DNA from: Phycisphaerae bacterium
GTDB lineage: Bacteria > Planctomycetota > Phycisphaerae > JAAYCJ01
Direction: 5' to 3'
Length of the DNA stretch: 47,607 nt
Assembly (NCBI GenBank): GCA_012729815.1
Contig: JAAYCJ010000145.1
Coordinates: 1 to 47,607, forward strand
Below are positions 9,986-29,955 of this stretch, piece by piece; within the stretch, counting starts at the first letter, position 1, and each line of letters begins with the position of its first letter. The translations under genes were made by a program, and so were the position numbers. The notes under the pieces are model-generated. The model made no database searches. It saw only the letters and a list, made by a program, of their open reading frames with translations, and was not told the DNA's origin.

Positions 9986-9987
9986 GC

Positions 9988-13545: not shown

Positions 13546-14745
13546 ATGGCGACGTTCAAGTACAAAGCGCGAGACCTTCGCGGCGTCGAGCAGCAGGGCA
13601 GCCTGGTGGCGGATTCGCAGGCGGCGGCGGTGCGGGTGCTGGACGAGCGTGGTCTGTTTCCGATTCGGGTTTGGGAGGACAAGGTCGAGACGTCGTCGCT
13701 GCAGATCGGCCGGCGGGTGAAGCTGTCGGAGCTGGCGGGTTTTTACAACCAGTTGGGGGATTTGCTGGCGGCGGGGGTTCCGATGCTGCGGGCGCTGGAC
13801 GTTCTGGCGCGTCAGCAGCGGGCGGGCGTGATGGCGGTGGTGACGGGCGAGCTGCGGGAGGACGTGGCGGGCGGGGCGAGCATCGCGGACGCGATGGAGA
13901 AGCACACGCTGGTGTTTCCGGAGCTGCACGTGGGGATGGTGCGGGCGGGCGAGCAGGGCGGTTTTCTGAATTCGGTGCTGCACCGTCTGGCGTCGTTCGT
14001 GGAGCAGCGGGACGAGCTGCGGAACAAGGTGATCGGGGCGATGATCTATCCGCTGTTTCTGCTGGCGGTGGGATTGACGGTGGTGCTGGTGGCGGTGACG
14101 TACTTCATGCCGAAGCTGGAGCCGATGTTCGCGGGGATGGAGCTGCCGGCGTTGACCAAGGGGGTGATGGGGTTCGGCAACTTCTTGCGGGAGTATTACC
14201 TGCTGATTATTCCGGGGATCGCGCTGTCGGCGATGCTGGTGCTGCCGTATCTGCGGTCGCCGGCGGGCCGGAAGGCGTGGCACCGGGTCCAGTTCCGACT
14301 GCCGGTGGTGGGGAACGTGTTCCGGATGGTGGGGGTGTGCCGGTTCTGCCGGGTGCTGGGGACGCTGCTGGGCAACGGGGTGTCGATGATGCCGGCGTTG
14401 ACGATTTCGCGGGAGTCGGCGGGCAACGTGGTGCTGGCGGAGTCGATCGCGGACGCGGCGGAGGCGGTTCGTTCGGGCAAGAGTCTGTCGCAGACGCTGC
14501 GGGCGGGCAATCTGTTTCCGCTGGACATTATCGAGCCGATGGCGGTGGCGGAGCAGACGAACCGGTTGGACGTGGTGCTGGTGGAGATGGCGGACCGTCA
14601 CGAGCAGCGGGTGGCGCGGAAGGTGGACGTGGCGGTGCGGATGCTGGAGCCGGCGTTGCTGCTGGTGGTGTTCTCGATGGTCATGGTGATCGCCATGGCG
14701 CTTCTGCTTCCGATCATGCGGATGCGAAGCATCATGAGCATGTAG
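13546..14745 (+). CDS. gspF: Type II secretion platform protein GspF
   Basis: A 399-residue inner-membrane platform protein of the GspF/PilC family, the usual length. It shows the N-terminal FKYKARDLRG start, the duplicated T2SSF cytoplasmic domains (first from about residue 60 with FYNQLGDLLAAGVPMLRALD, second from about 265 with FCRVLGTLLGNGVSMMPAL) and three membrane segments (near 165-188, 213-235 and 370-393). It converts ATPase motion into pseudopilus growth. It is preceded by gspE and followed 49 bp later by the major pseudopilin gene. Confidence 0.95.
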   Translation: MATFKYKARDLRGVEQQGSLVADSQAAAVRVLDERGLFPIRVWEDKVETSSLQIGRRVKLSELAGFYNQLGDLLAAGVPMLRALDVLARQQRAGVMAVVTGELREDVAGGASIADAMEKHTLVFPELHVGMVRAGEQGGFLNSVLHRLASFVEQRDELRNKVIGAMIYPLFLLAVGLTVVLVAVTYFMPKLEPMFAGMELPALTKGVMGFGNFLREYYLLIIPGIALSAMLVLPYLRSPAGRKAWHRVQFRLPVVGNVFRMVGVCRFCRVLGTLLGNGVSMMPALTISRESAGNVVLAESIADAAEAVRSGKSLSQTLRAGNLFPLDIIEPMAVAEQTNRLDVVLVEMADRHEQRVARKVDVAVRMLEPALLLVVFSMVMVIAMALLLPIMRMRSIMSM

Positions 14746-14794: not shown

Positions 14795-15247
14795 ATGTCG
14801 AGGAAGTCGAGGACGTACCGGGTGAAGGCGTTCACGCTGTTGGAGATTCTGCTGGTGATCGGGATCATCGTGGCGCTGGGCGCGGTGATTTTGCCGAACC
14901 TGCTGGGCCAGGGCGAGAGCGCCAAGATCGGTACGACGAAGATTCAGATGAACAGCGTGGAGGAGGCGCTGGAGTATTACAAGCTGAAGGTTGGTTCGTA
15001 TCCGACGACGGACGAGGGGCTTGGCGCGTTGACGGACAAGGACGACGTACAGGACGAGGAGATGGCCAAGAAGTGGGACGGGCCGTACCTCAGGAAGAGC
15101 ACGGACCTGCGGGACCCGTGGGGCCGGAAGCTGAACTATGAGAGTCCGGGCCGCCACAACGAGCGGAGCTTCGACCTTTGGAGCAACGGTCCGGACGGCC
15201 GGGAAGGCAACGATGACGACGTCACGAACTGGGAAGACGACGACTAG
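14795..15247 (+). CDS. gspG: Major pseudopilin GspG
   Basis: A 150-residue prepilin with a short basic leader, the type III signal KA-FTLLEILLVIGIIVALG, and a C-terminal domain with SYPTTDEGLGALTDK and WDGPYL as in GspG. The ending SNGPDGREGNDDDVTNWEDDD-like acidic loop is the calcium site conserved in major T2SS pseudopilins. The residue before the cleavage point is Ala rather than the usual Gly. AAGGAG stands eight bases ahead of ATG 14795. It would polymerise into the periplasmic pseudopilus. Overlaps the next pseudopilin gene by 35 bp. Confidence 0.95.
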   Translation: MSRKSRTYRVKAFTLLEILLVIGIIVALGAVILPNLLGQGESAKIGTTKIQMNSVEEALEYYKLKVGSYPTTDEGLGALTDKDDVQDEEMAKKWDGPYLRKSTDLRDPWGRKLNYESPGRHNERSFDLWSNGPDGREGNDDDVTNWEDDD

Positions 15248-15833
15248 GCGGTTGGCTGCGGGCCGCGTGCGAGGCGGAGTTCGATCGTTCACGTTGATCG
15301 AGATTCTGCTGGTGATCGCGGTGCTGGTGATGCTGGCGGGTCTGATCTGGCCGAACGTGATGGGCCGCCGGGAGCAGGCGCGGTTCGACCACGTGGTGCT
15401 GCGGGTTTCGACGATGATGTCGCTGGCCCGCAGCGGCGCGATGATGTCGGGCCGGACGCACCGGTGCGTGTTCGACGAGGGCGGCGGGAGGATGCGGGTG
15501 GAGTGGGAGCCCGAGCCGTTCGACGGGGCGGGGGAATTCGAGCCGGTCGAAGGGAGTTGGGCGAGGCTGGATTTGGCGAAAGAGGGGGTTCGGTGCGAGA
15601 TGGTGGATTTGAGCGGGGTGTTCAAGGCGATTCGGGTTCGCGAGCGCGACGTGGTGGGCGAGGAGCCGCCGGCGGCGTTGCTGGAGCCGGTGACGTTCCG
15701 GCCGGACGGCCGGTGCGACTCGGGCGTGATCGTGTTGAAGTCGAAGGGCGGGCGTGAAGCGCAGATGGCAATCAACGGCCTGACCGGCCAGGTAAGGATG
15801 GTCGAATCATGGCAGGGAGAACGTCAGGAATAG
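15213..15833 (+). CDS. gspH: Minor pseudopilin GspH-like
   Basis: A 206-residue prepilin-like protein. Start ATG 15213 lies inside the end of gspG, with GGAAGG six bases upstream; an earlier in-frame ATG at 15138 would only add out-of-frame gspG sequence. A 25-residue basic leader ends at RS-FTLIEILLVIAVLVML, so the residue before the cleavage point is Ser, which is unusual. The rest matches the GspH/FimT layout: a helix with RREQARFDHVVLRVSTMMSLARSGA followed by a beta-rich domain. Position between G and I supports the assignment. Confidence 0.8.
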   Translation: MTTSRTGKTTTRRLAAGRVRGGVRSFTLIEILLVIAVLVMLAGLIWPNVMGRREQARFDHVVLRVSTMMSLARSGAMMSGRTHRCVFDEGGGRMRVEWEPEPFDGAGEFEPVEGSWARLDLAKEGVRCEMVDLSGVFKAIRVRERDVVGEEPPAALLEPVTFRPDGRCDSGVIVLKSKGGREAQMAINGLTGQVRMVESWQGERQE

Positions 15834-16792
15834 GGCGGTGGACGAGCGGGCGGCGGCGTGCCAGCATCCTGCTGGAGACGATGACGGCGCTGCTGGTCAT
15901 CGCGATTGCGCTGGGGGTGATGTCGGGGTTTTTCCAGAATTCGATCTCGCGGATTCGGGAGGCGCGGCTTCGGAGCCGGGCGATGCTGCTGGCGGAGAAC
16001 AAGCTGGCGGAGCTGCAGTTGGGGTTGGCGGACATGACGGAGGGGACGGAGGGCTCGTTCGACGGGCGGCCGGCTGGGTTTTACTGGATGGTCGAGACCG
16101 AGCCGACGGAGATCGAGGAGTTGGAGCGGTTGACGCTGACCGTGATCTGCGACGATCCGAGCGAGGGGTTTTCGATGCCGGTGCACACGTTGTTCAGCCC
16201 GTCGCTGAACTACTCGTATGAGAAGCTGATGGAGATATCGACGGACACGTCGCAGTTGATGGAGATTCAGACGCCGGGCCTGCAGGATTTGCTGACGCAG
16301 ATGAACGAGGCGGAGTTTCCGGGCGCGGATCGGCTGGTCAAGGCGCTGATGGCGGGCGGGGTGGGCGAGATGATTCGGTTGTTCAACCAGATCACGACGG
16401 GCCAGCTTTCGCCGGAGCAACTGATGGAGTTGCTTCAGCCGGAGATGGCTGATGACGAGGACGCGTTCATGGGCACGCTGCTGGCGGGCGGGGCGGCGGA
16501 GGAGACTCCGTACGGTCCGGTCTGGAGCGACGACGACACGGCGGTGATTTCGCCGGAGGCAGGGTTCGCGGGGGGCGAAGGGGAGACGGGTGAACCGACG
16601 TTGGCGGAGGGCGAGCCGCCTCCCGATGACCCGACGGCTGCGCGTCCGCGTTCGCGGACTCTGGCGCCGGGCGAAGAGGGAGAGGCGGCCGAGCCGAGTC
16701 CGGCTCCGAGCGGGCGGCAGGGGATGTCGCGCGAGGATGCGATGCGAGAGATCACCCGCCTGCTGGGAAGAATGGCGCGTGAGAAGCGATGA
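15809..16792 (+). CDS. gspI: Minor pseudopilin GspI-like with long acidic tail
   Basis: A 327-residue protein, more than twice the usual GspI length of about 120-130. A basic leader is followed by RRA-SILLETMTALLVIAIALG, with the Glu at +5 kept, Ala before the cleavage site and Ser instead of Phe at +1. RSRAMLLAENKLAELQLG then matches the GspI core helix. From about residue 130 there is a helical extension and then a Gly/Glu/Pro-rich stretch (GEGETGEPTLAEGEPPPDD), ending in a basic amphipathic helix. The extension has no recognised domain. It overlaps gspH by 25 bp and gspJ by four (ATGA). Confidence 0.75.
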   Translation: MAGRTSGIGRWTSGRRRASILLETMTALLVIAIALGVMSGFFQNSISRIREARLRSRAMLLAENKLAELQLGLADMTEGTEGSFDGRPAGFYWMVETEPTEIEELERLTLTVICDDPSEGFSMPVHTLFSPSLNYSYEKLMEISTDTSQLMEIQTPGLQDLLTQMNEAEFPGADRLVKALMAGGVGEMIRLFNQITTGQLSPEQLMELLQPEMADDEDAFMGTLLAGGAAEETPYGPVWSDDDTAVISPEAGFAGGEGETGEPTLAEGEPPPDDPTAARPRSRTLAPGEEGEAAEPSPAPSGRQGMSREDAMREITRLLGRMAREKR

Positions 16793-17601
16793 GCAGGACG
16801 ACCCGGGCGTTTACATTGCTGGAAGCCATGCTGGCGGTCTCGGTGATCATTCTGATTATCGGGGCGGTGTACTCGTTTTACACGTATTCGCTGCGGCTGG
16901 TGGAGGCGGGCAACCGGCACCTCCAGGAGTCGCTGGTGGCGAGGACGGTGCTTCAGCAGGTTGCGTCGGAGATTCGATCGATACCGGGATTGGGCACGCA
17001 TTTCGGGCCGGTGCTGCGCGGCGAGCACGACCGGATCTTGTTTATCAGCACGGTGAATCCGTCGCGGCTGGTGTTTTTCCCTCGTGACTTCATGGAGTCG
17101 ACGGTGGCGGTGGAGCACGATTTGCGTCGGGTGGAATACCGGCTGGCGGAGAGCGACGAGGAGGAGGTGCTGGGTCTGCGGCGGTCGGAGTTGCGGGTGC
17201 TGCTGGCGCCGACGGTGGAGGAGACCGGGGACGAGGAGTTGGCTGCGGGCGAGGCGTCGGAGTCGGTGGACGCGGCCGCGGAGGTGAGCGTCGACGAGGT
17301 GATGGATAACGTGGAGGTGGCCGAGGAGCAGATCGTCGCGGAAGACATCCGGTACCTGGAGTTTCAGTTCTACAACGGGCTGGGATGGAGCAGCCAGTGG
17401 GAGGCGGACGTTCTGCCGCGGGCGATTCGGATCGTGGTGGGTTTTTCGGAGGTTCCGGAAGAGGCGTTGCGGGACGAACTGATGCTGGCGTGGGAAGACC
17501 GGCCGTACCGCGAGGACCAGTATGACCTGGTGGTTTCGCTGCGGCTTTCGGAGGAACTGAAGGCCCGAAACGCCGAGAGCGGCGGGACGGAGGGGCAATG
17601 A
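16789..17601 (+). CDS. gspJ: Minor pseudopilin GspJ-like
   Basis: A 270-residue prepilin with the leader TTRA-FTLLEAMLAVSVIILIIGAVYSFY. RLVEAGNRHLQESLVARTVLQQVASEIRSI follows, matching the GspJ N-terminal helix. The C-terminal part is beta-rich with YLEFQFYNGLGWSSQWEAD and PRAIRIVV, typical of GspJ. A Glu/Ala-rich insertion lies at about residues 145-180. Its ATG overlaps the stop of gspI (ATGA at 16789), and its own end overlaps gspK in the same way. With GspI and GspK it should form the pseudopilus tip. Confidence 0.85.
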   Translation: MSRTTRAFTLLEAMLAVSVIILIIGAVYSFYTYSLRLVEAGNRHLQESLVARTVLQQVASEIRSIPGLGTHFGPVLRGEHDRILFISTVNPSRLVFFPRDFMESTVAVEHDLRRVEYRLAESDEEEVLGLRRSELRVLLAPTVEETGDEELAAGEASESVDAAAEVSVDEVMDNVEVAEEQIVAEDIRYLEFQFYNGLGWSSQWEADVLPRAIRIVVGFSEVPEEALRDELMLAWEDRPYREDQYDLVVSLRLSEELKARNAESGGTEGQ

Positions 17602-19061
17602 GGACGAGCGGTCGGACATTCCGGGGCCTTCGCCGCCGTCGTCGGTCATCGTGGCGGCGCGGGGTCATTTTGCCGATCGTGCTGGTGATTTTCATTCTGC
17701 TGGCTATGCTGGCGATCAGCTTCGGGTTTCTGGCCCGGGCGGAGTATTCGGGGATGGCGGCGCAGGCGCGGCTTCAGCAGGCGCGGTTCTGCGCGATGGG
17801 CGGTCTGGAGGGTGCGGCGCTGCTGCTTCGGCAGCACTTCAACGAGCCGGCGTTGTGGTACAACAATCCGGCGTTGTTCCAGGACCGGGAGGTGTACGGC
17901 GAGGGATCGGAGGAGGATCGGCGGGCGTGGCGGTTCAGCCTGGTCGGGTACAACCTCGACAGCGACCAGGCGACTCGGTACGGGATCACGGATGAGGCGG
18001 GCAAGTTGAACCTGAACGTGGCGAGTCCGGATCAGCTTTACCGGCTGATCGCGCCGCGGTGCGCGCCGGGGATGGCGGAGTCGCTGGTGGCGTCGCTGCT
18101 GGACTGGCGGGAGTCGGGGAGCGAGGCCCGGCCGGGCGGGGCGAAGGACACGTATTACATGATGCTCACGCCGCCGTACCGCTGCAAGCAGGGGCCGCTG
18201 GACACGGTTGAGGAACTGCTGCTGGTCAAGGGGTTCACGGCGGATATCGTGTACGGCGAGGACATGAATCGCAACGGGATGCTGGACGCGAACGAGGACG
18301 ACGGCGACGGGTCGCTGCCGCTGGACAACGGCGACGGCGTGCTGGACCGGGGGTTGTACCCTTACGTGACGGTGTACAGCCGCGAGCCGGAGGTGACGGA
18401 CGGCAATCCGTACATGCCGCGGGTGAACATGACGATCTGGCCGGAGGGCGTCGCGGACAAGCTGCGGCCGGAGCTGGCGGCGTTTCTGGTTCAGGCGCGG
18501 GACGGCAAGGCGGATTTCGGGAAGACGCCGGCCAACCTGGTCGGCATGCAGGTCGGCAAGGGCGGCAGCACGTTCGTTTCACCGGCGACGGAGGAGGATT
18601 TACCGGCGGTGATGGACCTGCTGACGACGGGGTATCACGTGCACGACGACGGGTTCGTGTACGGGCGGATCAACGTGAACACGGCGTCGCGGACGGTGCT
18701 TGGGACGATCGGGAAACTGACGCCGGAGGAGATCGATGCGATCCTCAGCGTCCGGAACCGGCTGACCGACGAGGCGAGGAAGACGACGGCGTGGCTGGTT
18801 ACGGAAAAGGTGCTGACGCTGGACAAATACAAAGAGGTGGCCTATTTATTCACTGCGCGGTCTTACCAGTTTACGGTAGAGTCGATCGGGTACGGCGACT
18901 ATGATGGCCTTCAGTGCCGTCTTCAGACGGTGATGGAACTGCGTCTGCCGCGGGTCCAGTACGTGTATTTTCGCGATCTGACGGAGTTTGGGGCCAGTTA
19001 CCGGCTTGGAGAATTCGAACAGGATGATGTTATCGTTACACAGGAAAGCGGTCGCGATTGA
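17598..19061 (+). CDS. gspK: Minor pseudopilin GspK-like with EF-hand-like loop
   Basis: A 487-residue protein of GspK type, longer than the common ~330. The basic leader ends in WRRG-VILPIVLVIFILLAML; as is usual for GspK the Glu at +5 is absent. ARLQQARFCAMGGLEGAALLLRQ and ITDEAGKLNLNVASPDQLYRL are family hallmarks leading into the SAM-like helical domain. Residues 222-233 (DMNRNGMLDANE) form a textbook EF-hand/dockerin-type calcium loop, followed by DNGDGVLDRG; known GspK structures also bind calcium. A second helix-hairpin-helix part near 350-400 contains GRINVNTASRTVLGTI. It starts in an ATGA overlap with gspJ. Confidence 0.85.
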   Translation: MRTSGRTFRGLRRRRRSSWRRGVILPIVLVIFILLAMLAISFGFLARAEYSGMAAQARLQQARFCAMGGLEGAALLLRQHFNEPALWYNNPALFQDREVYGEGSEEDRRAWRFSLVGYNLDSDQATRYGITDEAGKLNLNVASPDQLYRLIAPRCAPGMAESLVASLLDWRESGSEARPGGAKDTYYMMLTPPYRCKQGPLDTVEELLLVKGFTADIVYGEDMNRNGMLDANEDDGDGSLPLDNGDGVLDRGLYPYVTVYSREPEVTDGNPYMPRVNMTIWPEGVADKLRPELAAFLVQARDGKADFGKTPANLVGMQVGKGGSTFVSPATEEDLPAVMDLLTTGYHVHDDGFVYGRINVNTASRTVLGTIGKLTPEEIDAILSVRNRLTDEARKTTAWLVTEKVLTLDKYKEVAYLFTARSYQFTVESIGYGDYDGLQCRLQTVMELRLPRVQYVYFRDLTEFGASYRLGEFEQDDVIVTQESGRD

Positions 19062-20514
19062 CTACGACTCGAAGGACGTCCGCCTGCTGGAGTTTTCGCG
19101 GGAGCGGGGCGGGACGGTGAGCGTTCACCGGCGGTGCGCCGGGCGGTTGCCGGAGGGCGTGTCGGTGGACGATCCGGAGGGGTTCGGCAAGCACCTGTCG
19201 GAGCTGATGGCGCGGGAGGGCATCGCGACGCGGACGGTGGATTTCGCCATCGCCCGCGACGAGGGAATGATGCACCACCTGTCGGTGCCGGCGACCCCGG
19301 ACGATGAGCTGGCGAATCTGGTGCGGTTCCAGCTTTCGCAGGAGTTGCCGTTCGCGATCGAGGAGTCGTCGGTCGATTACGTGGTCACGGCGCGTGCCGA
19401 GGGCGGTCTGGCGTCGCGGTTAATCGCGGGCGCGGTGAAGCTGGAGCATCTGGACCGTCTCCGGCACGTGGCGCGGGCGGCTGGGCTGTCGATCCGGCGG
19501 ATCGGTTTTCGCCCGTACACGTCGTATCTGGCGTGCCGTCAGGCTGGGTTGCTTGCCGAAGGTGCGACCTTGTTCGTGTACCTGGCCCACGAGACGATCG
19601 AGATCGACGTGTTCGACCGCGAGGAAGGGCTGCTGTTTTCGCGGAGCGCCGGGCTGACGGAAGGCGTCGAGGAGCAGTCGGCGGTCGAGCGTGGGATTCT
19701 GCAGCTTCATCGGACGTTGCCGGCGTACCATGCGGAGGGCCGCGCCAAGCCGCTGGGTCAGGTGGTGGTGGCGGGTGAGACGGGCTCGGAGGGGGAGTTT
19801 CTCGAGAAGGTCCAGGAGCAGCTCAAGCTGACGGGCCGGCTGTTCGCGTTGCCGGGCGAGTCGGGCGGCGTGGAGTATTCGGCGTGCTACGGACTGGCGG
19901 TCGGTCAGTACGAGTCGCGGGCGTCGCAGTTCGACTTTTTGAATCCCAAGCGGGCGGTCGATCCGGTGGCCCAGCGGAACCGGCGGTACCAGCTCGTGGC
20001 GGCGCTGCTGATCGTACTGCTGATCGTGGGTTTTGTAACGATGCGGCGGGTTCGGTCGGATCGGCAGGCGGAGCTGGCGCGGCTGATCGCGATCGACGAG
20101 GAGTTGCAGGACGAGCTCAAGGAGCACAAGCGGTTCGAGCGTCAGGTTCGCCAGATGGCGGAGTGGAGCGAGGGGAAGGTGAACTGGCTCGATCAACTGT
20201 CGGAGTTGACCGAGCGGATGCCGGACCCGCAGCAGGCGTACGTGGAGGTGGTTCGTCTTTCCGAGGCCCGCAAGGGCGAGGGGGCGGCCAGGATCAGCAT
20301 CCAGGGACAGGCCAAGTCGGCGCAGGTGGTGAACCAGATGTACCAGACGCTGCTCCAGAGCGGCGAGTATCTTGAGGTGGATCGCCGCGCGGAGTCCACC
20401 GCCCGCACCTCGCGAGAGTATCCGGAGAGTTTCAACTTCGAGATCGTGGCGGCTTCGAGCGAGGCGGGCGCGGCGACCAAGCCGGCGGACGACGCGGCGG
20501 AGACGGCGGAGTGA
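19024..20514 (+). CDS. PilM-PilN type fusion (GspL role)
   Basis: A 496-residue protein. The first ~310 residues are an actin-like PilM/GspL cytoplasmic domain (KAVAIDYDSKDVRLLEF, FAIARDEGMMHHLSVPA, LVRFQLSQELPF). A single membrane helix follows (YQLVAALLIVLLIVGFVTM, near 323-341), then a periplasmic coiled-coil and ferredoxin-like PilN domain (LDQLSELTERMPDPQQAYV onward). This combines the separate PilM and PilN proteins and corresponds to GspL topology, linking the GspE ATPase to the periplasmic assembly. ATG 19024 is chosen for the ribosome-binding AACAGG and because the actin fold begins nearby; it overlaps gspK by 38 bp. An ATG at 18988 is the alternative. Confidence 0.8.
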   Translation: MMLSLHRKAVAIDYDSKDVRLLEFSRERGGTVSVHRRCAGRLPEGVSVDDPEGFGKHLSELMAREGIATRTVDFAIARDEGMMHHLSVPATPDDELANLVRFQLSQELPFAIEESSVDYVVTARAEGGLASRLIAGAVKLEHLDRLRHVARAAGLSIRRIGFRPYTSYLACRQAGLLAEGATLFVYLAHETIEIDVFDREEGLLFSRSAGLTEGVEEQSAVERGILQLHRTLPAYHAEGRAKPLGQVVVAGETGSEGEFLEKVQEQLKLTGRLFALPGESGGVEYSACYGLAVGQYESRASQFDFLNPKRAVDPVAQRNRRYQLVAALLIVLLIVGFVTMRRVRSDRQAELARLIAIDEELQDELKEHKRFERQVRQMAEWSEGKVNWLDQLSELTERMPDPQQAYVEVVRLSEARKGEGAARISIQGQAKSAQVVNQMYQTLLQSGEYLEVDRRAESTARTSREYPESFNFEIVAASSEAGAATKPADDAAETAE

Positions 20515-20539
20515 CCTCCAGAGAATCCGAAAGGAACCC

Positions 20540-21565
20540 ATGACGATACAACGTCGAGAGCGGGTATTGCTGATCGCGGCGATCGCGGTGGTCGCGCTGG
20601 TAGCGGCGCGGCCGATCCTCCGTTCGGTCTTCGGAGGCGGCGGGAGTCAGATCGATGAGCTTCGGACCGCCATCATCGAGAAGGAGGAGGAGCTCGAGGG
20701 CAGCCGCAAGCTGGTTCGGCAGTGGCGATCGATCCACGAGCAGAGCATGGCTGACGATCCCGACGCGGCCAAGGGCCTGCTGATGTCGCGGGTCAACGTC
20801 CTGCTGCTTCAAGCGGGCCTGGCGGACAAGCAGGTGACGCCGCAGGCGGGATCGCCGGTCAAGACGGGCAGCGACGCGAGCTACTATCCGGTGGCGCTGT
20901 CGCTGACGTGCAAAGGGACGCTGGAACAGATCGTCAAATTCTTCGACATGCTCGACCAGGAGCCGTACCTGGTGAAGGTGACGAGTTTTACGCTGAACCC
21001 GCAGGAGAAGAGCGAGATCATCTCGCTGAACCCGTGCCGGATCGAGGCGCTGATTCCGGCGCGGCCGGTCCTTCGGCGGGCGCAGTCTGGTGCGGAGCGG
21101 AAGGTTCCCGATCCGCTTCCGGCGCCGCAGGTCCGCAACGCGTACGCCCAACTGACGGCGAAGAACATTTTCGGTCCGCCGCGACCGACACCGACGCCGA
21201 TGCCCGCGCCGGTCGCCCCGGTCGAGCCGGTGGAGCCGCGTCCGGCAGTGGGACAGCGGCCGAGCGTTCGCCGCGGTCCCGGCACGCTGGTGGGGACGGT
21301 GATCCACGGGCCGACGACGGGGGTCTACGTGCGAAACCACAACGAGACGCCGTGGTATAATTTGGGTGAGAGCATTGGAAGCCGACAACCGCATACGCTG
21401 GTGTTCGTCCATCCCCTGGGCGCGGTCGTCAGAGACCAGCGGGGACAGCATTTTTATATCGAGATCGGCCAGAGCGTGGACCAGCCGAAAGCCCTCACCC
21501 GAGAGAATTTGGCCGCCGACGAGCTTCTGGAACTCTACGACGCCTGGCAGTCGGCATCCCACTGA
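20540..21565 (+). CDS. PilO/GspM-type protein fused to a GspC/PilP homology domain
   Basis: A 341-residue protein. One N-terminal membrane helix (ERVLLIAAIAVVALVAARPIL) and a coiled coil lead to a PilO-type ferredoxin-like domain (residues ~70-185: YYPVALSLTCKGTLEQIVKFFDML). After a Pro-rich linker the C terminus (from about 205) contains AQLTAKNIFGPP and then LVGTVIHGPTTGVYVRN, WYNLGESI and LGAVVRDQRGQHFYIEIG. This is the pattern of the GspC homology region or PilP. As no separate gspC exists here, this fusion could contact the secretin. ATG 20540 has AAAGGAA upstream; earlier in-frame ATG 20372 lies inside the previous gene. Confidence 0.75.
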   Translation: MTIQRRERVLLIAAIAVVALVAARPILRSVFGGGGSQIDELRTAIIEKEEELEGSRKLVRQWRSIHEQSMADDPDAAKGLLMSRVNVLLLQAGLADKQVTPQAGSPVKTGSDASYYPVALSLTCKGTLEQIVKFFDMLDQEPYLVKVTSFTLNPQEKSEIISLNPCRIEALIPARPVLRRAQSGAERKVPDPLPAPQVRNAYAQLTAKNIFGPPRPTPTPMPAPVAPVEPVEPRPAVGQRPSVRRGPGTLVGTVIHGPTTGVYVRNHNETPWYNLGESIGSRQPHTLVFVHPLGAVVRDQRGQHFYIEIGQSVDQPKALTRENLAADELLELYDAWQSASH

Positions 21566-21664
21566 AGATTATAGAATTTTACTGGTGTTCCGGCTTCGGA
21601 AGTGGGACAATGTGCGCCCATAAGACGGAGCTGCCGGTCGGTTCGTAGAAGGAAGGAGTTTTCT

Positions 21665-24600
21665 ATGCCCAGGTCTGCGAAACAAAGACCTACGACTTTG
21701 GTTTCGCCGACGTTGATTTTCGCGCTCCTTATCAGCGGGTTTTGTCTTGCTCAGGAGCCTGCCACGCAGCCTTTCGGCGAGCAACCGCCGGACATCACGC
21801 AGCTACGCCGTCTCATCCAAGCCCAGCGCCGTCAGCAGGCGCAAGATCGCACCACCCAGACCGCCACGGAGGAGGGCGGCGAGCCTATGGTGGAGATTCC
21901 GGTGACGCAGCCGGTCACTGGTCCGGTCGAGCTTGGGCCCGGTATTACCGAGGACACGACGCAGCCCATCGACGTCGAGACGCTGCCCGGCGCGAGGGGT
22001 GACGGACTGATCTATTTTTCGTTCCAGAACGCGCCGTACTCGGCGCTGCTGGACCTGCTCGAACGGCAGACGGGATTGCCGATCATCGGCGACCGCGACA
22101 TCCAGGGCGAGACGACGTACGTCAGCACGAAGGGAATGACGGTCGAGGAGGCGATCTCGGAAGTCAACCTGCTGTTGCCCGAGCCGTCGGTGGTGGTGCG
22201 GCAGGACGGGTATCTTCGGATCTCGAAGTTTCCCGACGTGCTGCGCGAGGTGGGCCGGTACTTCATCGGGGCTGAGGAGTTTCTGGAGTCGGACGTTTCG
22301 CCCAGCGTGGTGGTGCGGGTGTTGTTCCGGGTTGAGAATCTTCCGGCCAACGAGTTGGTGAACCTGGTCGCCCAAGCGCTGCCGGTAGGCCGGGTCACGC
22401 TGGCGGCGTGGAAGACATCCAACTTCATTCAGGCGGTGGGCCTGGCTTCGGAAGTTCGGGACGTGGTTGTTCTCGCTTTGGAACTCGATCAGCGGATCGA
22501 CGTGACCGACCCGGGGTTGACGGTGCGGGTGTTCCAGCCGAAATACATCACGGCGACGGGACTGGCCACGGCGCTGGAGAAGGTCTTGCCGCAGGCGGTG
22601 GTGGGCCCGGGCGACGTGCCGCTGGACGACACGCCGTCGCCCGCGCCGCGCGGGCGGGCTCCGGCTGCGGCGGCGATGGGCGACGCGGTGTCGATTGCCG
22701 CGGACGAGAAGGCGGGCATCGTGGTGGTCAAGGCGCCGGCGAGCATGATGGACTACGTCAGTCAGCTCGTCGAGATGATCGACGTGCCGGGCGAGGCGGG
22801 CGAGGACGTGGAGATCGTGGCGCTGCGGAACGCGAAGGCGGAGGACATCTACAACCGGGTGCTTCAGCCGTACTACCGGGAGATGAAGCGTCCGCTGCCG
22901 GCGGCGGCTGACAAGGTGAGCAACAGCATCGCGATCTGGGCGACGGGCAAGGAGAAGGAGGAGCTCACGGCGCTGATCCAGGAGTTGGACGAGACGGCGA
23001 TCGGAGGCCGGCCGGTTCCGGTGGTCCGGACATATCGTCTTGAGGAGGTGGACCTGGCCGCGCTGGTCAAGACGCTGCAGGACATTTTCGGGGAGACGGC
23101 GAGCGTGACGTTCGCGATGGACCGGGTGGCCAACCTGCTGATCGTGGCGGCTCCGGACGAGCAGCACGGGCGGATCGAGCCGGTGATCGAGGAGTTGCGG
23201 TCGAAGCTCGGCCAGCTCGACGAGACGCGGCTGGTGAAGCTTCAGTATGCCGACGCGACGGACGTGTCGCGGACGCTCAAGCAGGTTCAGAGCGGGGTGA
23301 AGCGTCCGGCCAACCGATCGCCGGTGAGCGTTTCGGAGCACCCGCAGTCGAACGCGATCGTGGTGTCCGGTCCGCGCGAGGACGTTCAGGCGACGGTGGA
23401 GTTGATCGAGCGGCTGGACGAGGAAGTTCGCCAGACCGACGAGATCAAGACGTATACCCTTCAGCACGCCAGCGTGGACGAGGTGGTCAAGACGATCAAC
23501 AACCTTTACGGCGGCAAGAGCAGCCGGCTGAAGATCGTGGCGGACGCGTGGACCAACACGCTGTTTGTCAGCGGGGCCGGGGCCATGCGGGCGGAGATAG
23601 AGGAGTTGCTGGCGCGGATGGATCAGCCGGTGGAGGCGACCGAAGCCGAGGCTGAGACGCCGATGGGCAATATCGACTTTATTCACCTGCGGTACGCGTC
23701 GGCGGAAGAGGCGGCGGATCAGATCGAGGAGATGCTGTATCCGACGGCGGGAACGCCGGCCGGGACCAAGCCCGCGCAGACCGCGGACATTGACGCCTCG
23801 AAGTCGGGCAACTACCTGGTGGTGACCGGACCGGAGAAGCAGGTGGAGCGGGTCCGGCAGTTGGCCAAGCAGATCGACGAGGTGGCGTCGAAGATACCGG
23901 ACGCGTTGACGGTCAAGGCGATTCAGAAGATTTCGGCGGCGCGGCTGGCCCAGATGCTCGAGGTGGTGATCCCGGAGTTGCTCGGGGCGAACGTGCAGAT
24001 CGTCGAGATCGACGTGGGCGGCGAGGAGTCGGACCTCAAGAAGCTGATGGACGTTCCTTCGACGCAGCCGGACGACGAGCGGACGCGGATCGTGATCGGG
24101 GTTGACCGGAAGAACAACAACCTGCTGATCCGCAGCCGGCCGTGGGAGGTCGAGCAGATCAGTTCCGTGATCACCACGCTGACCACGGACGTCGAGGATG
24201 ATGTCGAGTTTGAGATTTACGCCCTGCAGTACGCCAACCCGTCGGAGGTGGCGCAGAACCTCGAGGCCGTATTCAATGACGTGACGGTTGGGCCGGTCCC
24301 GCCGCCTCAGCCTCAGCCTCAGGCGAACCAGCCTCCCCAGCCGCCGGCGCCTCCGGGCCAGCCTCAGCCGCCGCAGGCGCGGCAGGCCCGCACGCCGCGT
24401 CAGGCCGTCGCCCGGACCACGGTCAATCGCCGCATCCGCGCCATTCCTCTCGATACCATGTCCGCGGTGATTATCCGGGCCGAGCCGCGGGATTTCGAGC
24501 CGGTCAAGAAGCTCATAGAGCAACTGGACCAGCCGCAGTCGGCTGACATCCGCATTTTCCATCTGCGGTACGCGCGGGCGGAGGCCGTGGTCAAGAACAT

Positions 24601-27600
24601 CAGCGAAGTTCTCGGCACCCGTCGGGCGGGGCGCGTTGCGCGAAGCGGGATGGGTTTCGACACATCGTTCAGCATCAGCGCCGATCCGGCCAGCAACGCC
24701 GTGATCGTCTCGGCGGACAAGGCGGAGACCGAGCAGATCGAGGCGATCATTGCGGCGCTCGATCATCCGACGGATACCGAAGTGGCGATGCAGGTGCTGC
24801 CGCTGAAGCGCGGGCGGGCGGATGAGTTGGCCCGGATGATCCAGACGCTGTTGAACCAGGCGGAGCAGATTCGTGCGGGCGGGCTGGGCCTGAGGCCTCA
24901 GCCGATCGCGCTGAGCGCGGACGCCATGACGAATTCGCTGGTTTTTGTCGGGCCGGCGCGAGTATTCGAAGAGGTCAAGCGGCTGGTCAATGAGCTGGAC
25001 GGGGTGCGGGCGGGCGGCAACGGCCGGCCGTGGATCATACCGGTTCGGAGAATTCCGCCCGAGCGGGCCAAGCAATTGCTGGAGGAACTGCTGCCGGACA
25101 AGACGCGCGGCGACGCCTCGGAGGGTGGGCTGTACCGGTCGATGGCGCAGGTCCCGTTCGATGCGCCGGGTGTCAGCCCGTTGATCGTCGGGGCGGTCGC
25201 GGCGGTGGCGACGGGCGCGGTGCAGTTGCCGATCGAGCGGCCGGAGGTGCTGAGCCAGCAGTTTGAGGCACCGGCAGTTCCGGCATCGCCGACGACCCGG
25301 CCGGTTCTCAGCGGGAAGGAGCTCGAAGAGGTCATTCGCGAGATCGTGGCGAGGCATCAGACCTCGACGCAGCCCGCGGCCGGACCGGCGGCGACGACTC
25401 AGCCGCGTGTGCCGTCGATTTCGCCTGAGGCGGCGGCTGACCTTCACGGATTGATCCAGGGCGTTTCGCCGGACGTGGAGATTACCGCGCTGCCGGAGCA
25501 GGGCGCGCTGCTGGTCTACGGCAGTGAGGAGGACTACCAGGCGATTCAGCGGATTCTGGAGTTTTTGGACCGGTCGCAGTCGCGTCCGGAGGTGAAGGTG
25601 ATCAAGCTGCAGAGCGCTCGTGCGGCCGATCTGGCTCCGGTGCTGAGCAGCATTTACGGCCGGCGTCCGCAGCCGCCGGGACTCCCGCCGATCACCTTTA
25701 CGGCGGACAAGACGAGCAACTCGATCATCGTCTCGGCGAGTTCGGAGGACATCGACGAGATCGCGGCGATGATCCAGTCGCTCGACAGCCAGGAGCAGCC
25801 GCTGGAGATCGAGTTCCGCACGTACATGCTGCGGAACGCGCGGGCGTCGGAGGTGGCCGGGCGGCTGCAGGAGATGGTGCAGCAGATCATGACGGCCCGC
25901 GGCGTGACGGCTCCGCCGCTGACGATCACGGCGGACGACCGCACGAACACGATTCTGGTCAGCGCTCCGGCCAACTACTTCGACCACATCGAGCGGATCA
26001 TTGAGATGCTGGACTCGGTGCCGTCATTCGCGACGGCGACGATGGAGATTATCCGGCTCAAGCAGACGGACGCGCGGTCGCTGGCGGCGACGCTGATGGA
26101 GCTGTTGACGCCGGCGAGCGGACAGGGGCAGCCGAAGTCCGGGCAGTTCGAGATTTTTCGGCGGCTGGAGATGGCGGCGGAGCGTGAGGGCGGGAAATTC
26201 ACGCTGGACCTGGAGAAGCCGATCATGATTTTGCCGGATCAGCCGACCCAGACGCTGGCGATCCTGTCGACGCCGGAGAATCTGGTGGGCATCAAGGCGC
26301 TGGTGTCGCTGTACGACCGCGTTCCGCTGTTCGAGGAGCTTCGGGTCCGGGCGTTTCCGCTGAAGAACGCCGACGCGCAGGAACTGGTGGGGGTGCTGGA
26401 GAATCTTTTCAACAAGGGCGGCACGCTGACCGACGTGCCGGGTACGGGGCGGCAGGCGGGCGTGCCGGAGAATCCGACGGGGGCGGCGGTGGTGTACAGC
26501 ACGGCGTTCGCGGCCGATCCGCGGACCAACACGGTGATTGTCAGCGGTCACGAGGTGAGCATCGCGCTGGCAGAGGTGTTGATTATGAAGCTGGACGAGG
26601 ACCGTCCGGCGGACATCTATCCGATCGAGATGATTCCGCTTGAGCACGCGGACGCCAGCGGGGTGGCCAACGTCATCCAGGAGATCATGGACCGGCGGGT
26701 GGAGCGGGCGGCGCAGTTGGGCACGGGCCGGGCGGCTGAGCGGATGCGGGTGATCATCAAGGCCGATCCGCGGACCAACAACCTTCTGGTCAGCGCGGCG
26801 CCGGAGACGGTGGAGACGATCAAGGATCTGGTTCAGCGTCTGGATCAGGCTCCGACGGCTGGGTTCGCGCCGACGGTCATGAACCTTCAGAATCTCGACG
26901 CGATCGAGGTCGCGGAACTGATAAACGACGTGTTCGAGGCCCAGGCCCGGGTCCGCCGGGAGGCGGTGAGAGAAGGCGAGGTGGAACCGGCGCCGGTCAT
27001 CATTCCGGATCCGGCGAGCAACAGTCTGATCGTGGTGGCCACGCGTCAGGGGCTCGAGGAGACCAAACGGCTGATCGACGAGATCGACCGTCTGCCCGCG
27101 GAGCCGGGCGTGACGGTGCGGGTCTATCCGCTGGAGACGGCGTCGGCGGCGGCTCTTCAGCCGATGATCGAGACGCTGCTGGAGGAACAGAAGCGAACGG
27201 CGAAGGCGCCCTCGCCGACCGTGTTGGCCGACCAGCGGACCAACTCGCTGATCGTCTACGGCAGCAAGTCGGATCAGGCCCTCATGGCGGGAATCGTCAA
27301 GCAACTCGATCAGCCGGGGAGCGCGGACCAGCGGGTGCGTGTATTTCCGCTCGAGAAGGCCGACGCGGAGGCCATCAAGGAGATCATTGACGAGATCTAC
27401 ACGGAGCGGGCGGCGGCGGGGGCCGAGGCCGAGGCGGTGACCGTGGTGGTCGACGAGCGGACCAACTCGCTGATCGTCTACGCCGCGCCGGACGACATGC
27501 AGACGATCGGCAACCTGGTGCAGCGGCTGGACACGATCGAGATCACCAAGCGGCTGCAGATCGCGGTGATTCCGGTGATTTCGGCCGACGCCGGTCAGCT

Positions 27601-29383
27601 CGCCGAGGCGCTTCGCGATATGCTCTCGCCGCAGGAGGGCGGGCAGGGGCTGCGGCAGTCGGTCATTCTGGAGTTCATGCGTCAGACGCCCGAAGGCGAG
27701 CGGCTGGTGCAGCAGGCGGTCAAGGACCAGGTGTTCATCTACGGCGACGAAGAGAACAATTTCATCATCGTGATTGCTGCGGAAGAGACGGTCGGACTGG
27801 TCCAGGCCCTGGTCAAGCACATCGACGAGGTCGCGCCGACGATTGAGATGCGGATTTTCCCGCTCGAGAACGCGGACGCGGGCCAGATGGAGGAGATGCT
27901 TTCGGAACTCTTCGGCGAGGAACGCGGCGGCCGCGGCGAGGGGGCGGCGCCGGCCATCACGGCTGAGGGCGTGACGGCGGCGGGCCGGATCGTACAGGAG
28001 ACGTTCTCGGTGACCGCGGATACGCGAACCAACTCGGTGATCGTCACCGGCACTCCGGAGTATCTGAAGCTGGTGGAGCGGATCGTCAAGCATCTCGACG
28101 AACAGGAAGCCAAGGAACAGATCACCGAGGTCATCTCGCTGCGGAACGCGAAGGCTCCGGACATCCAGCAGGCGGTCTCGACGTTCGTGGAGAACCAGCT
28201 CAACATGCTTCGCGAGGTGTATGGGGCGGAGGGGATGGCTCCCGAACGGCTGCTCGAACAGCAGGTGAACGTCGTCGCCTACGAGGACACGCAGAAGATC
28301 ATCTTACAGGCGTCGCCCAAGTACTTCAAGACGGTCCGGGAGATCATCAGCGAGCTCGATGAGATGCCGCTGCAGGTGATGATCGACGCGGTGCTGGTCG
28401 AGGTGACGCTCAACGACCGGCTCGAATACGGTTTTGAGGCGGTCGGGCAGGATCTGGCCTTCACCAAGGCGAGCAATGCCCAGGGGACTCCGGGCATCGG
28501 GCCGGGCCACGACGTGGTGGTCGGCACGGACGTGGGCGCGGCGGGTACCGGGGTGGCTGGGTTCACCTTCGCCCTCAACAGCGAGGACCTGAACCTTCTG
28601 TTCCGGGCGCTGTCGTCGGACGGGCGGCTCAGCGTGCTTTCCCGCCCGCACATTTCGGCCCGCGACAACGCGGCCGGGTTGATCACGAGCGGCTCGCGGG
28701 TGCCGTTCCCGACGGCCTCGGTCACTTCGGGCGATACGGGCGTGATTACCACGCAGATTCAGTACGAGGACGTGGCCCTGAGTCTGGAGGTTACGCCGCA
28801 CGTGAACCCGTACGGGTTTGTGAACATGGAGGTGGCGACGGAGATTTCGGACTTGAGCGGTTCGACGGTCCAGATCAGCGAAGGGTTCAACGCGCCGATC
28901 TACAACCAGCGGAAGCTGACCACGGAGATCACCGTTCACGACGGGGAGACGGTGGTGATCGGCGGGTTGTTGCGGTCGCGGAAGGAGCAGCGGGAGACGA
29001 AGGTGCCGTTCCTGGGCGACGTTCCGCTGCTGGGCCTTTTCTTCAAGTCCGCGACGGCCACGGACGAGCAGTCGGAACTGCTGATTGTCATGACGCCGCG
29101 GGTGATCGGCACGCCGGTCGAGGAAGGGCACCTGACGCCGGCCGAGCTCGATATGATCCGCGAACACCGGGAGTACTCGGTTCAGGAGCGCGACCTGCTG
29201 CATCTGCTGCCGGGCGATATTCTGACGTCGGAGTTGATGCAGGGCCTGCAGGTCACGCCGGAGGAGTTGGCGACGCGCCCGGCCCCGTTGAAGCCGGACG
29301 CCAAGAAGCTCGACCCGCTGTATCGGCTGTTCAATCCGCCGCCCGCTCCGCCGGAACCCGAACTGGAAGTGCCGGAGGAGTGA
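21665..29383 (+). CDS. gspD: Giant type II secretion secretin (GspD-like), ~23 N modules
   Basis: About 2,572 residues, against roughly 650-750 for ordinary GspD. A signal peptide ends near residue 29 (GFCLA). An N0-like domain follows (about 112-195: YFSFQNAPYSALLDLLERQ). Residues ~215-2230 hold about 23 consecutive N1-type modules of ~75-100 residues, each with an L-x-N/H-A-x-A helix start, a strand such as ADxRTNSLIV, and a helix ending in LD. A Pro/Gln-rich linker interrupts them at ~875-916, and a longer non-modular insert lies at 25100-25440. The outer-membrane secretin domain spans ~2234-2480 with DGRLSVLSRPHISARDN and VPFLGDVPLLGLFF. A short tail follows. AAGGAG precedes ATG 21665. 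It would form the outer-membrane channel with an exceptionally long periplasmic vestibule. Confidence 0.9.
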   Translation: MPRSAKQRPTTLVSPTLIFALLISGFCLAQEPATQPFGEQPPDITQLRRLIQAQRRQQAQDRTTQTATEEGGEPMVEIPVTQPVTGPVELGPGITEDTTQPIDVETLPGARGDGLIYFSFQNAPYSALLDLLERQTGLPIIGDRDIQGETTYVSTKGMTVEEAISEVNLLLPEPSVVVRQDGYLRISKFPDVLREVGRYFIGAEEFLESDVSPSVVVRVLFRVENLPANELVNLVAQALPVGRVTLAAWKTSNFIQAVGLASEVRDVVVLALELDQRIDVTDPGLTVRVFQPKYITATGLATALEKVLPQAVVGPGDVPLDDTPSPAPRGRAPAAAAMGDAVSIAADEKAGIVVVKAPASMMDYVSQLVEMIDVPGEAGEDVEIVALRNAKAEDIYNRVLQPYYREMKRPLPAAADKVSNSIAIWATGKEKEELTALIQELDETAIGGRPVPVVRTYRLEEVDLAALVKTLQDIFGETASVTFAMDRVANLLIVAAPDEQHGRIEPVIEELRSKLGQLDETRLVKLQYADATDVSRTLKQVQSGVKRPANRSPVSVSEHPQSNAIVVSGPREDVQATVELIERLDEEVRQTDEIKTYTLQHASVDEVVKTINNLYGGKSSRLKIVADAWTNTLFVSGAGAMRAEIEELLARMDQPVEATEAEAETPMGNIDFIHLRYASAEEAADQIEEMLYPTAGTPAGTKPAQTADIDASKSGNYLVVTGPEKQVERVRQLAKQIDEVASKIPDALTVKAIQKISAARLAQMLEVVIPELLGANVQIVEIDVGGEESDLKKLMDVPSTQPDDERTRIVIGVDRKNNNLLIRSRPWEVEQISSVITTLTTDVEDDVEFEIYALQYANPSEVAQNLEAVFNDVTVGPVPPPQPQPQANQPPQPPAPPGQPQPPQARQARTPRQAVARTTVNRRIRAIPLDTMSAVIIRAEPRDFEPVKKLIEQLDQPQSADIRIFHLRYARAEAVVKNISEVLGTRRAGRVARSGMGFDTSFSISADPASNAVIVSADKAETEQIEAIIAALDHPTDTEVAMQVLPLKRGRADELARMIQTLLNQAEQIRAGGLGLRPQPIALSADAMTNSLVFVGPARVFEEVKRLVNELDGVRAGGNGRPWIIPVRRIPPERAKQLLEELLPDKTRGDASEGGLYRSMAQVPFDAPGVSPLIVGAVAAVATGAVQLPIERPEVLSQQFEAPAVPASPTTRPVLSGKELEEVIREIVARHQTSTQPAAGPAATTQPRVPSISPEAAADLHGLIQGVSPDVEITALPEQGALLVYGSEEDYQAIQRILEFLDRSQSRPEVKVIKLQSARAADLAPVLSSIYGRRPQPPGLPPITFTADKTSNSIIVSASSEDIDEIAAMIQSLDSQEQPLEIEFRTYMLRNARASEVAGRLQEMVQQIMTARGVTAPPLTITADDRTNTILVSAPANYFDHIERIIEMLDSVPSFATATMEIIRLKQTDARSLAATLMELLTPASGQGQPKSGQFEIFRRLEMAAEREGGKFTLDLEKPIMILPDQPTQTLAILSTPENLVGIKALVSLYDRVPLFEELRVRAFPLKNADAQELVGVLENLFNKGGTLTDVPGTGRQAGVPENPTGAAVVYSTAFAADPRTNTVIVSGHEVSIALAEVLIMKLDEDRPADIYPIEMIPLEHADASGVANVIQEIMDRRVERAAQLGTGRAAERMRVIIKADPRTNNLLVSAAPETVETIKDLVQRLDQAPTAGFAPTVMNLQNLDAIEVAELINDVFEAQARVRREAVREGEVEPAPVIIPDPASNSLIVVATRQGLEETKRLIDEIDRLPAEPGVTVRVYPLETASAAALQPMIETLLEEQKRTAKAPSPTVLADQRTNSLIVYGSKSDQALMAGIVKQLDQPGSADQRVRVFPLEKADAEAIKEIIDEIYTERAAAGAEAEAVTVVVDERTNSLIVYAAPDDMQTIGNLVQRLDTIEITKRLQIAVIPVISADAGQLAEALRDMLSPQEGGQGLRQSVILEFMRQTPEGERLVQQAVKDQVFIYGDEENNFIIVIAAEETVGLVQALVKHIDEVAPTIEMRIFPLENADAGQMEEMLSELFGEERGGRGEGAAPAITAEGVTAAGRIVQETFSVTADTRTNSVIVTGTPEYLKLVERIVKHLDEQEAKEQITEVISLRNAKAPDIQQAVSTFVENQLNMLREVYGAEGMAPERLLEQQVNVVAYEDTQKIILQASPKYFKTVREIISELDEMPLQVMIDAVLVEVTLNDRLEYGFEAVGQDLAFTKASNAQGTPGIGPGHDVVVGTDVGAAGTGVAGFTFALNSEDLNLLFRALSSDGRLSVLSRPHISARDNAAGLITSGSRVPFPTASVTSGDTGVITTQIQYEDVALSLEVTPHVNPYGFVNMEVATEISDLSGSTVQISEGFNAPIYNQRKLTTEITVHDGETVVIGGLLRSRKEQRETKVPFLGDVPLLGLFFKSATATDEQSELLIVMTPRVIGTPVEEGHLTPAELDMIREHREYSVQERDLLHLLPGDILTSELMQGLQVTPEELATRPAPLKPDAKKLDPLYRLFNPPPAPPEPELEVPEE
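22300..28370 (+). repeat. Array of about 23 secretin N modules within gspD
   Basis: The conserved strand motif (T/S-N-x-L/I-I-V and variants) recurs near nucleotides 22424, 22704, 22913, 23121, 23344, 23548, 23801, 24111, 24458, 24688, 24924, 25496, 25708, 25939, 26240, 26521, 26771, 27010, 27236, 27458, 27752, 28025 and 28285. Most periods are 205-310 bp. The largest gap (24924-25496) contains a non-modular insert. Positions were read by eye and module borders are approximate. Confidence 0.8.
27234..27482 (+). repeat. 27-bp exact direct repeat in adjacent secretin modules
   Basis: Positions 27234-27260 and 27456-27482 are identical over 27 bases (encoding RTNSLIVY in both), 222 bp or 74 codons apart. 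Identity at DNA level between neighbouring modules suggests recent duplication or gene conversion in this part of the array. Confidence 0.8.
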
Positions 29384-29955
29384 TGGGTAGTTTCTCGCTC
29401 ATTTGCCGTTCCGCATCGGTCCGGCGAGTTGCGGCGTCGGCGGTCTGGGTGCTGGCGGTCGGTTTGGCCGGGTGCCAGGGCCCGGGTTGGAAGGGGACGT
29501 CGGAGGGTCCGGGACCGGGCCGGATCACCCACCACGATGACGTGGCGTACGTCGCGATTTTCGCCAAGACGCCGCTGCTGGACCTGGATCACGACAAGCG
29601 TCCCGAAGGGGTGGCGGTGCGGACGTACCTGTATCGTCAGGCGAGCAAGGATCCGGTGGCCGCCCGCGGCCCGATCACGTTCCGCCTGATCAAGCGGACG
29701 AAAAGCCCGGAAGGGGCTCCGAGCGATGAGGAGCTGAAGCGCTGGGAGCTTTCGGAGGAGCAGTTGGCCGGTTCGCTGGGGCGCGACCAGTTCGGTTTCC
29801 TGTGCTACCAGATGTCGCTGTACTGGAAGGGCGTGAAGGTGGCGGGGCCGGGCATCTATCTGCAGGCGGAGTTCGTTCGGCAGGATCAGTCGCACATTCC
29901 CTCGCGTCTGCTGCTTCTGCCGATCCTGGCCCGGGGCGATGCGCAGCGAGGATAG
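29383..29955 (+). CDS. Small lipoprotein downstream of the secretin
   Basis: A 190-residue protein with a lipoprotein signal: a basic start, then VWVLAVGLAGC with the lipobox LAGC at about residues 27-30. The mature part has HHDDVAYVAIFAKTPLLDLD and a beta-rich pattern ending in SRLLLLPILARG; I do not recognise a family. Its ATG shares a base with the secretin stop (TGATG at 29381-29385), indicating translational coupling. An outer-membrane lipoprotein beside a secretin could be a pilotin that escorts it, but known pilotins (GspS, OutS) are about half to two thirds this size and no motif confirms this. Confidence 0.75.
   Translation: MGSFSLICRSASVRRVAASAVWVLAVGLAGCQGPGWKGTSEGPGPGRITHHDDVAYVAIFAKTPLLDLDHDKRPEGVAVRTYLYRQASKDPVAARGPITFRLIKRTKSPEGAPSDEELKRWELSEEQLAGSLGRDQFGFLCYQMSLYWKGVKVAGPGIYLQAEFVRQDQSHIPSRLLLLPILARGDAQRG

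Follow-up and report, generated by a model that had tools for sequence, protein, structure and literature searches.

GspD, the secretin of the type II secretion system (T2SS), assembles as a 12–16-mer in the outer membrane and exports folded proteins; the textbook protein has the order N0–N1–N2–N3–pore, with three ring-building modules. What would a GspD with 23 such modules build? The question is raised by a gene for a 2,572-amino-acid (aa) protein in a 47,607-nucleotide stretch of DNA from a Phycisphaerae bacterium, the whole of which is referred to here as the window. The number of N1-type motifs in secretins depends on the machine, three being usual and not obligatory (PMC10550240). We found no earlier report of such giant secretins in the open-access literature searched, where multi-ring giants are apparently undescribed.

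Architecture of the giant secretin

The giant GspD is encoded by one uninterrupted frame at 21665–29383 (+), in a sequence free of Ns. The open frame itself spans 21602–29383 (+) and offers a GTG at 21602; the likely start, judged from the strong Shine–Dalgarno sequence (AAGGAG) immediately 5′ of it, is the ATG at 21665. A signal peptide (aa 1–30; 21665–21754, + strand, as are all features below) and a Gln/Thr/Pro-rich spacer (aa 31–111; 21755–21997), both read from the sequence, are followed by an N0 domain (aa 112–190; 21998–22234), which in an AlphaFold2 model superposes over 78 residues on the N0 of ETEC GspD (4jtm; Z 9.4, 2.7 Å). An internal iterative hidden Markov model (HMM) found 22 strong modules between aa 287 and 2232, and Pfam Secretin_N matched the protein with 759 bits, 19 stretches being significant individually. 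Module 1 (aa 216–278; 22310–22498), the most divergent, was assigned from a weak internal HMM match at aa 220–275 and a β-α-β-β-α order at about aa 216–278 of the model.

Modules 2–21 (22523–27826), mostly N2-like, were delimited by Pfam Secretin_N, the internal HMM and N1/N2/N3 typing: modules 2–8 at aa 287–373, 382–442, 454–511, 521–585, 594–653, 670–738 and 750–839; modules 9–15 at aa 850–955, 962–1033, 1042–1112, 1124–1302 (with a large insertion), 1310–1374, 1384–1450 and 1460–1551; and modules 16–21 at aa 1561–1644, 1654–1727, 1737–1808, 1818–1882, 1891–1956 and 1966–2054. The penultimate module 22 (aa 2062–2145; 27848–28099) gives the best Secretin_N match and is N2-like (48.9 bits for N2 versus 39.4 for N3), and the last, module 23 (aa 2155–2232; 28127–28360), is N3-like (35.4 bits for N3 versus 15.4 for N2). 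The secretin pore domain (aa 2233–2484; 28361–29116) matches Pfam Secretin (PF00263) with 161 bits at aa 2315–2481 and the fold of GspD and PilQ; a C-terminal tail and the stop codon (29117–29383) complete the gene.

The original prediction of an N0 domain, about 23 N-type modules and a normal secretin end thus holds: the HMM accounts for 22 modules, and module 1 is added on the strength of a weak match together with its modelled fold. Of the Pfam families it named, Secretin_N and Secretin were both found, whereas STN gave no match at E 0.01. A match to the Alpha-lytic protease prodomain within the array was taken as chance similarity.

The giant is the GspD of a gsp operon

The giant gene is the last of a run of gsp genes on the same strand, several of which overlap. 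Profile matches identified gspE, the secretion ATPase (MshEN and T2SSE; 11860–13536), gspF (13546–14745), gspG for the major pseudopilin (14795–15247), gspK (17598–19061) and gspL (PilM-like plus PilN-like; 18988–20514). Matches below cut-off mark minor pseudopilins that are gspH-like (GspG/GspH; 15138–15833), gspI-like (15809–16792) and gspJ-like (16789–17601), and gspM (20372–21565) was assigned from a T2SS_GspM_XpsM match of 25 bits, also below cut-off, together with its operon position. No GspC was recognized. Because Gsp homologues also lie upstream of the other giants checked, and gspE–K homologues precede three-module gspD genes in Sumerlaeota, UBP4 and Sedimentisphaerales loci, the giant seems to sit where gspD normally lies. 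Immediately ahead of gspE and following genes for an ABC ATPase and a Band_7 protein, 8558–11637 encodes two proteins of no recognized family (475 and 549 aa). Overlapping the end of gspD, 29380–29955 encodes a 191-aa protein of no known family, homologues of which follow gspD in L059, L176 and L126.

The NCBIfam GspD model TIGR02517 scored 802 bits against a cut-off of 351, a sum inflated by the repeats, with its best single stretch at aa 2015–2484, and the best phmmer matches in the PDB were GspD proteins. PilQ and SctC models also passed their cut-offs with lower scores than GspD, since repeated modules push up scores; membership in the PilQ or T3SS families is ruled out by the operon (gspE-F-G-H-I-J-K-L-M-D) and by the best scores being those of GspD. 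The window's operon does not have the pilM-N-O-P context expected of PilQ, the secretin of type IV pili, although gspL is PilM/PilN-like. With a pore domain after an N3 motif, an N0 domain, N1 and N2 motifs joined by short linkers, a gspE–M operon and the TIGR02517 match, the protein qualifies as a T2SS GspD on all the features tested save module number, which is 23 in place of three N1-type motifs.

Giant secretins recur across Phycisphaerae

Two genomes of the same family encode the same layout, one in an intact protein of 2,475 aa and one in a protein of 1,752 aa that is truncated where its contig begins. A survey of secretin lengths, as the original prediction had proposed, found that giants recur across the class: frames longer than 2,000 aa are present in at least 47 of 198 Phycisphaerae genomes and at least 11 of 25 families. 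Secretin_N counts made across the phylum, for which at most 14 candidates were scored per genome, are for that reason not equivalent to module counts. The retrieved giants have 20 to 62 modules, the longest being a 6,169-aa protein with 62 modules on contig VGYT01000018.1 of a Planctomycetota metagenome-assembled genome (L039, G043:C18, the same gene as L084). Arrays have about 5–12 modules in Planctomycetia and 3–5 in Sedimentisphaerales.

Records labelled Verrucomicrobia, whose taxonomy and spread are taken from record titles, have 41–46 modules in complete single-gene cases; giants of 3,766–4,311 aa so labelled, some as Akkermansia or Pedosphaera, are L085, L087, L088, L090, L091 and L132. 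In a pore-region tree with a weak backbone, the Verrucomicrobia rows and one row titled 'bacterium' form a fully supported group nested among the Phycisphaerae giants, and this placement, if the binning is right, suggests transfer. Phycisphaeral giant secretins are also present in L112 and L117, which are labelled Leptolyngbya sp. PLA1 and Cyanobacteria bacterium CYA; these genomes are probably mislabelled.

Modules and linkers resemble those of ring-forming GspD

In two AlphaFold2 models, with a mean pLDDT of about 74 and pTM of 0.33–0.38, the modules covered show the β-α-β-β-α order, six C-proximal modules among them. Stretches of consecutive modules superpose on XcpQ N1–N2 (Z 11.4, 3.3 Å over 134 residues; Z 12.2, 4.8 Å over 171) and on N2–N3 of assembled ETEC GspD (Z 10.9, 4.6 Å over 120 residues), and the pore matches GspD 5w68 with Z up to 15.1; the structure prediction of successive modules proposed earlier gave the known ring-building fold, at 3.3–4.8 Å. 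Because the rmsd becomes large over longer spans, these monomer models do not pin down how the modules are arranged overall. The linkers between modules have a median of 8 aa in giants, equal to that of ordinary secretins; 91% of 2,647 junctions are 5–13 aa long and about 3% exceed 20 aa. Typing with N1, N2 and N3 profiles built from a small training set of nine ordinary secretins assigned an N3-like last and an N2-like penultimate module in 23 of 24 proteins, the remaining modules being mostly N2-like.

We consider it probable that the protein is the outer-membrane secretin of a complete T2SS and that its stack of periplasmic rings is greatly extended, in which case all modules would form rings. 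The N2-type ring-building motif would have been multiplied, turning N0-N1-N2-N3-pore into N0, 23 modules and pore, and by analogy with N1–N3 of known GspD the modules would stack as coaxial rings below the pore. A rather unlikely alternative is that only the C-proximal N2-like and N3-like modules form rings, the other ~20 forming flexible or loosely associated strings that link the pore to an inner membrane lying far away. Such a tether would agree with models that leave inter-module arrangement undetermined and with the flexibility of N-terminal rings even in known secretins (PMC10550240), and the modules that align between distant lineages are the most C-proximal ones. The short, uniform linkers, as in ring-forming GspD, and the mostly N2-like modules weaken the tether, which the original prediction had raised as its second possibility, and the conservation of the arrays bears on it further.

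Arrays are conserved module by module within lineages

Reciprocal best modules are colinear between the window's protein and a family relative (20 of 20) and in comparisons within other lineages (48 of 48, 45 of 46 and 41 of 42), with identities of 47–70% on the colinear path and 22–23% off it; in one case 48 modules were kept colinear at 48% identity. Between lineages, mainly C-proximal modules can be aligned, from which it follows that the arrays grew or changed separately. In four close pairs dN/dS was 0.08–0.13 for the modules and 0.08–0.15 for the pore, whereas a fifth, more distant pair, in which synonymous sites are near saturation, gave about 0.37 and 0.26, respectively. Judged from these substitution ratios, the modules are under purifying selection as strong as that on the pore within close pairs. 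The constraint on mid-array modules thus equals that on the pore, which argues against their being a mere tether.

Split forms point the same way. In several genomes (L162/L107, L103, L159–L161, L164, L169 and L080) two adjacent genes replace the single one: the first encodes a signal peptide, N0 and 15–26 modules, and the second its own signal peptide, 12–24 modules and the pore. Because these forms lie in two regions of the tree (f12/f14 and f21) and differ in their break points, the split probably arose at least twice. Between them the two proteins preserve the layout from N0 to pore. Both halves are kept as secreted proteins, which would make sense if the cell still requires the N0-bearing section, and this too counts against a tether. 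The Verrucomicrobia-labelled L100 has an in-frame stop but lacks another signal peptide after it; this could be an error or a pseudogene.

The modules could instead form a scaffold that binds secreted enzymes, polysaccharide or peptidoglycan, each diverged module serving a different partner. This is improbable: the modules of one protein share only about 24% identity and yet each is conserved between relatives, and insertions fall mainly in the α1–β2 loop, as a binding role would allow, but the protein holds no inserted domain of known binding function, Pfam finds no credible repeated domain other than Secretin_N, and the module fold is that of the ring-building motif. Non-adaptive growth, in which in-frame tandem duplications add surplus modules that are tolerated, is more doubtful still. 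It draws on the 62-module protein, which corresponds to a 40-module relative (L051) plus about 22 modules, mostly after module 22; these extra modules (about 22–44) have a 12-module period with up to 88% identity and, on this sequence pattern, are an in-frame block duplication. With dN/dS at about 0.1 along whole arrays and up to 48 modules kept in colinear order, such growth is largely refuted in the lineages tested. Misassembly or fusion of several genes, and likewise gene decay, can be dismissed, as the frame is open end to end, the architecture recurs in many genomes including single-contig ones, the modules are under purifying selection, and their low mean identity (24%, maximum 45%) makes repeat collapse or misjoining unlikely; the intact gene claimed at the outset is borne out.

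A proposed periplasmic tube

The lengthened stack is supported by the GspD family match, the operon, the fold, typing and linkers of the modules, their colinear conservation and low dN/dS, and the split genes, with the six-ring PilQ of Thermus as a precedent. Against it stand the roughly 3% of junctions longer than 20 aa and predicted monomers that leave the module arrangement unfixed, and 62 rings in a straight line would make a tube of great length relative to a small cell. At an estimated 2.5–4 nm each, 23 rings would form a periplasmic tube of roughly 60–90 nm, and 40–62 modules a longer one; such a tube would bring N0 to the platform in the inner membrane at places where the two membranes are widely separated. 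The planctomycete periplasm is enlarged and convoluted (PMC5394234). Whether a bacterial class and a nested Verrucomicrobia-labelled clade build T2SS tubes with 20–62 rings, about 60 to 200 nm long or longer, to span an envelope with deep invaginations, some of them two-protein stacks with an N0-bearing lower and a pore-bearing upper part, we regard as evenly balanced.

With GspD, PulD and XcpQ of known T2SS the giant shares N0, N2-like and N3-like modules, pore, gsp operon, linker length and fold, but those have three ring modules against its 23 (20–62 in relatives). PilQ of Thermus thermophilus, like the giants, exceeds the usual number of periplasmic rings: it stacks six (PMC5745081), which form a channel about 35 nm long where the periplasm measures about 70 nm (PMC4463427, PMC5745081) and are said to span most of its width (PMC5745081). 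A longer stack would be the simplest extension of this arrangement. It is, however, a type IV pilus secretin with about a quarter of the giant's ring modules or fewer. The mid-sized GspD proteins of Planctomycetia (Pirellulales, Gemmatales and Planctomycetales) come from the same phylum and have a related pore and expanded arrays of about 5–12 modules, but differ in size (1,100–2,300 aa). Crateriform structures link the outer and inner membranes of Planctomycetia (PMC5394234), and an identity with them would be attractive for the 5–12-module secretins; we do not claim it, as described Phycisphaeraceae are without such structures (PMC8882080).

If the modules stack, multiplication of one ring motif would have produced periplasmic secretion conduits several-fold longer than any known, so that giant-bearing bacteria may build the longest envelope-crossing secretion tubes known so far, and the bridging of the enlarged planctomycete periplasm by secretion machines would become directly testable. 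A two-protein stack, if true, would be a new way of building a secretin. Even without stacking, related gsp operons with a selected series of 3, 5–12, 20–50 and 62 modules provide a natural experiment on the function of secretin N-domains.

Secretins of ordinary length (about 400–1,250 aa) are encoded alongside the giants in the same genomes, so some secretins span that envelope with few rings and the giant length is not dictated by the width of the periplasm alone. A strict-ruler role fits poorly with module numbers that vary from 20 to 62 between lineages, one of which gained about 22. The long secretin might instead serve T2SS sites with a distant inner membrane, the other secretins acting at close contacts. 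The window's own genome has three more secretin frames of ordinary length, L002, L003 and L004 (787, 520 and 1,049 aa), and the contig of L003 also carries a GspE-like ATPase fragment.
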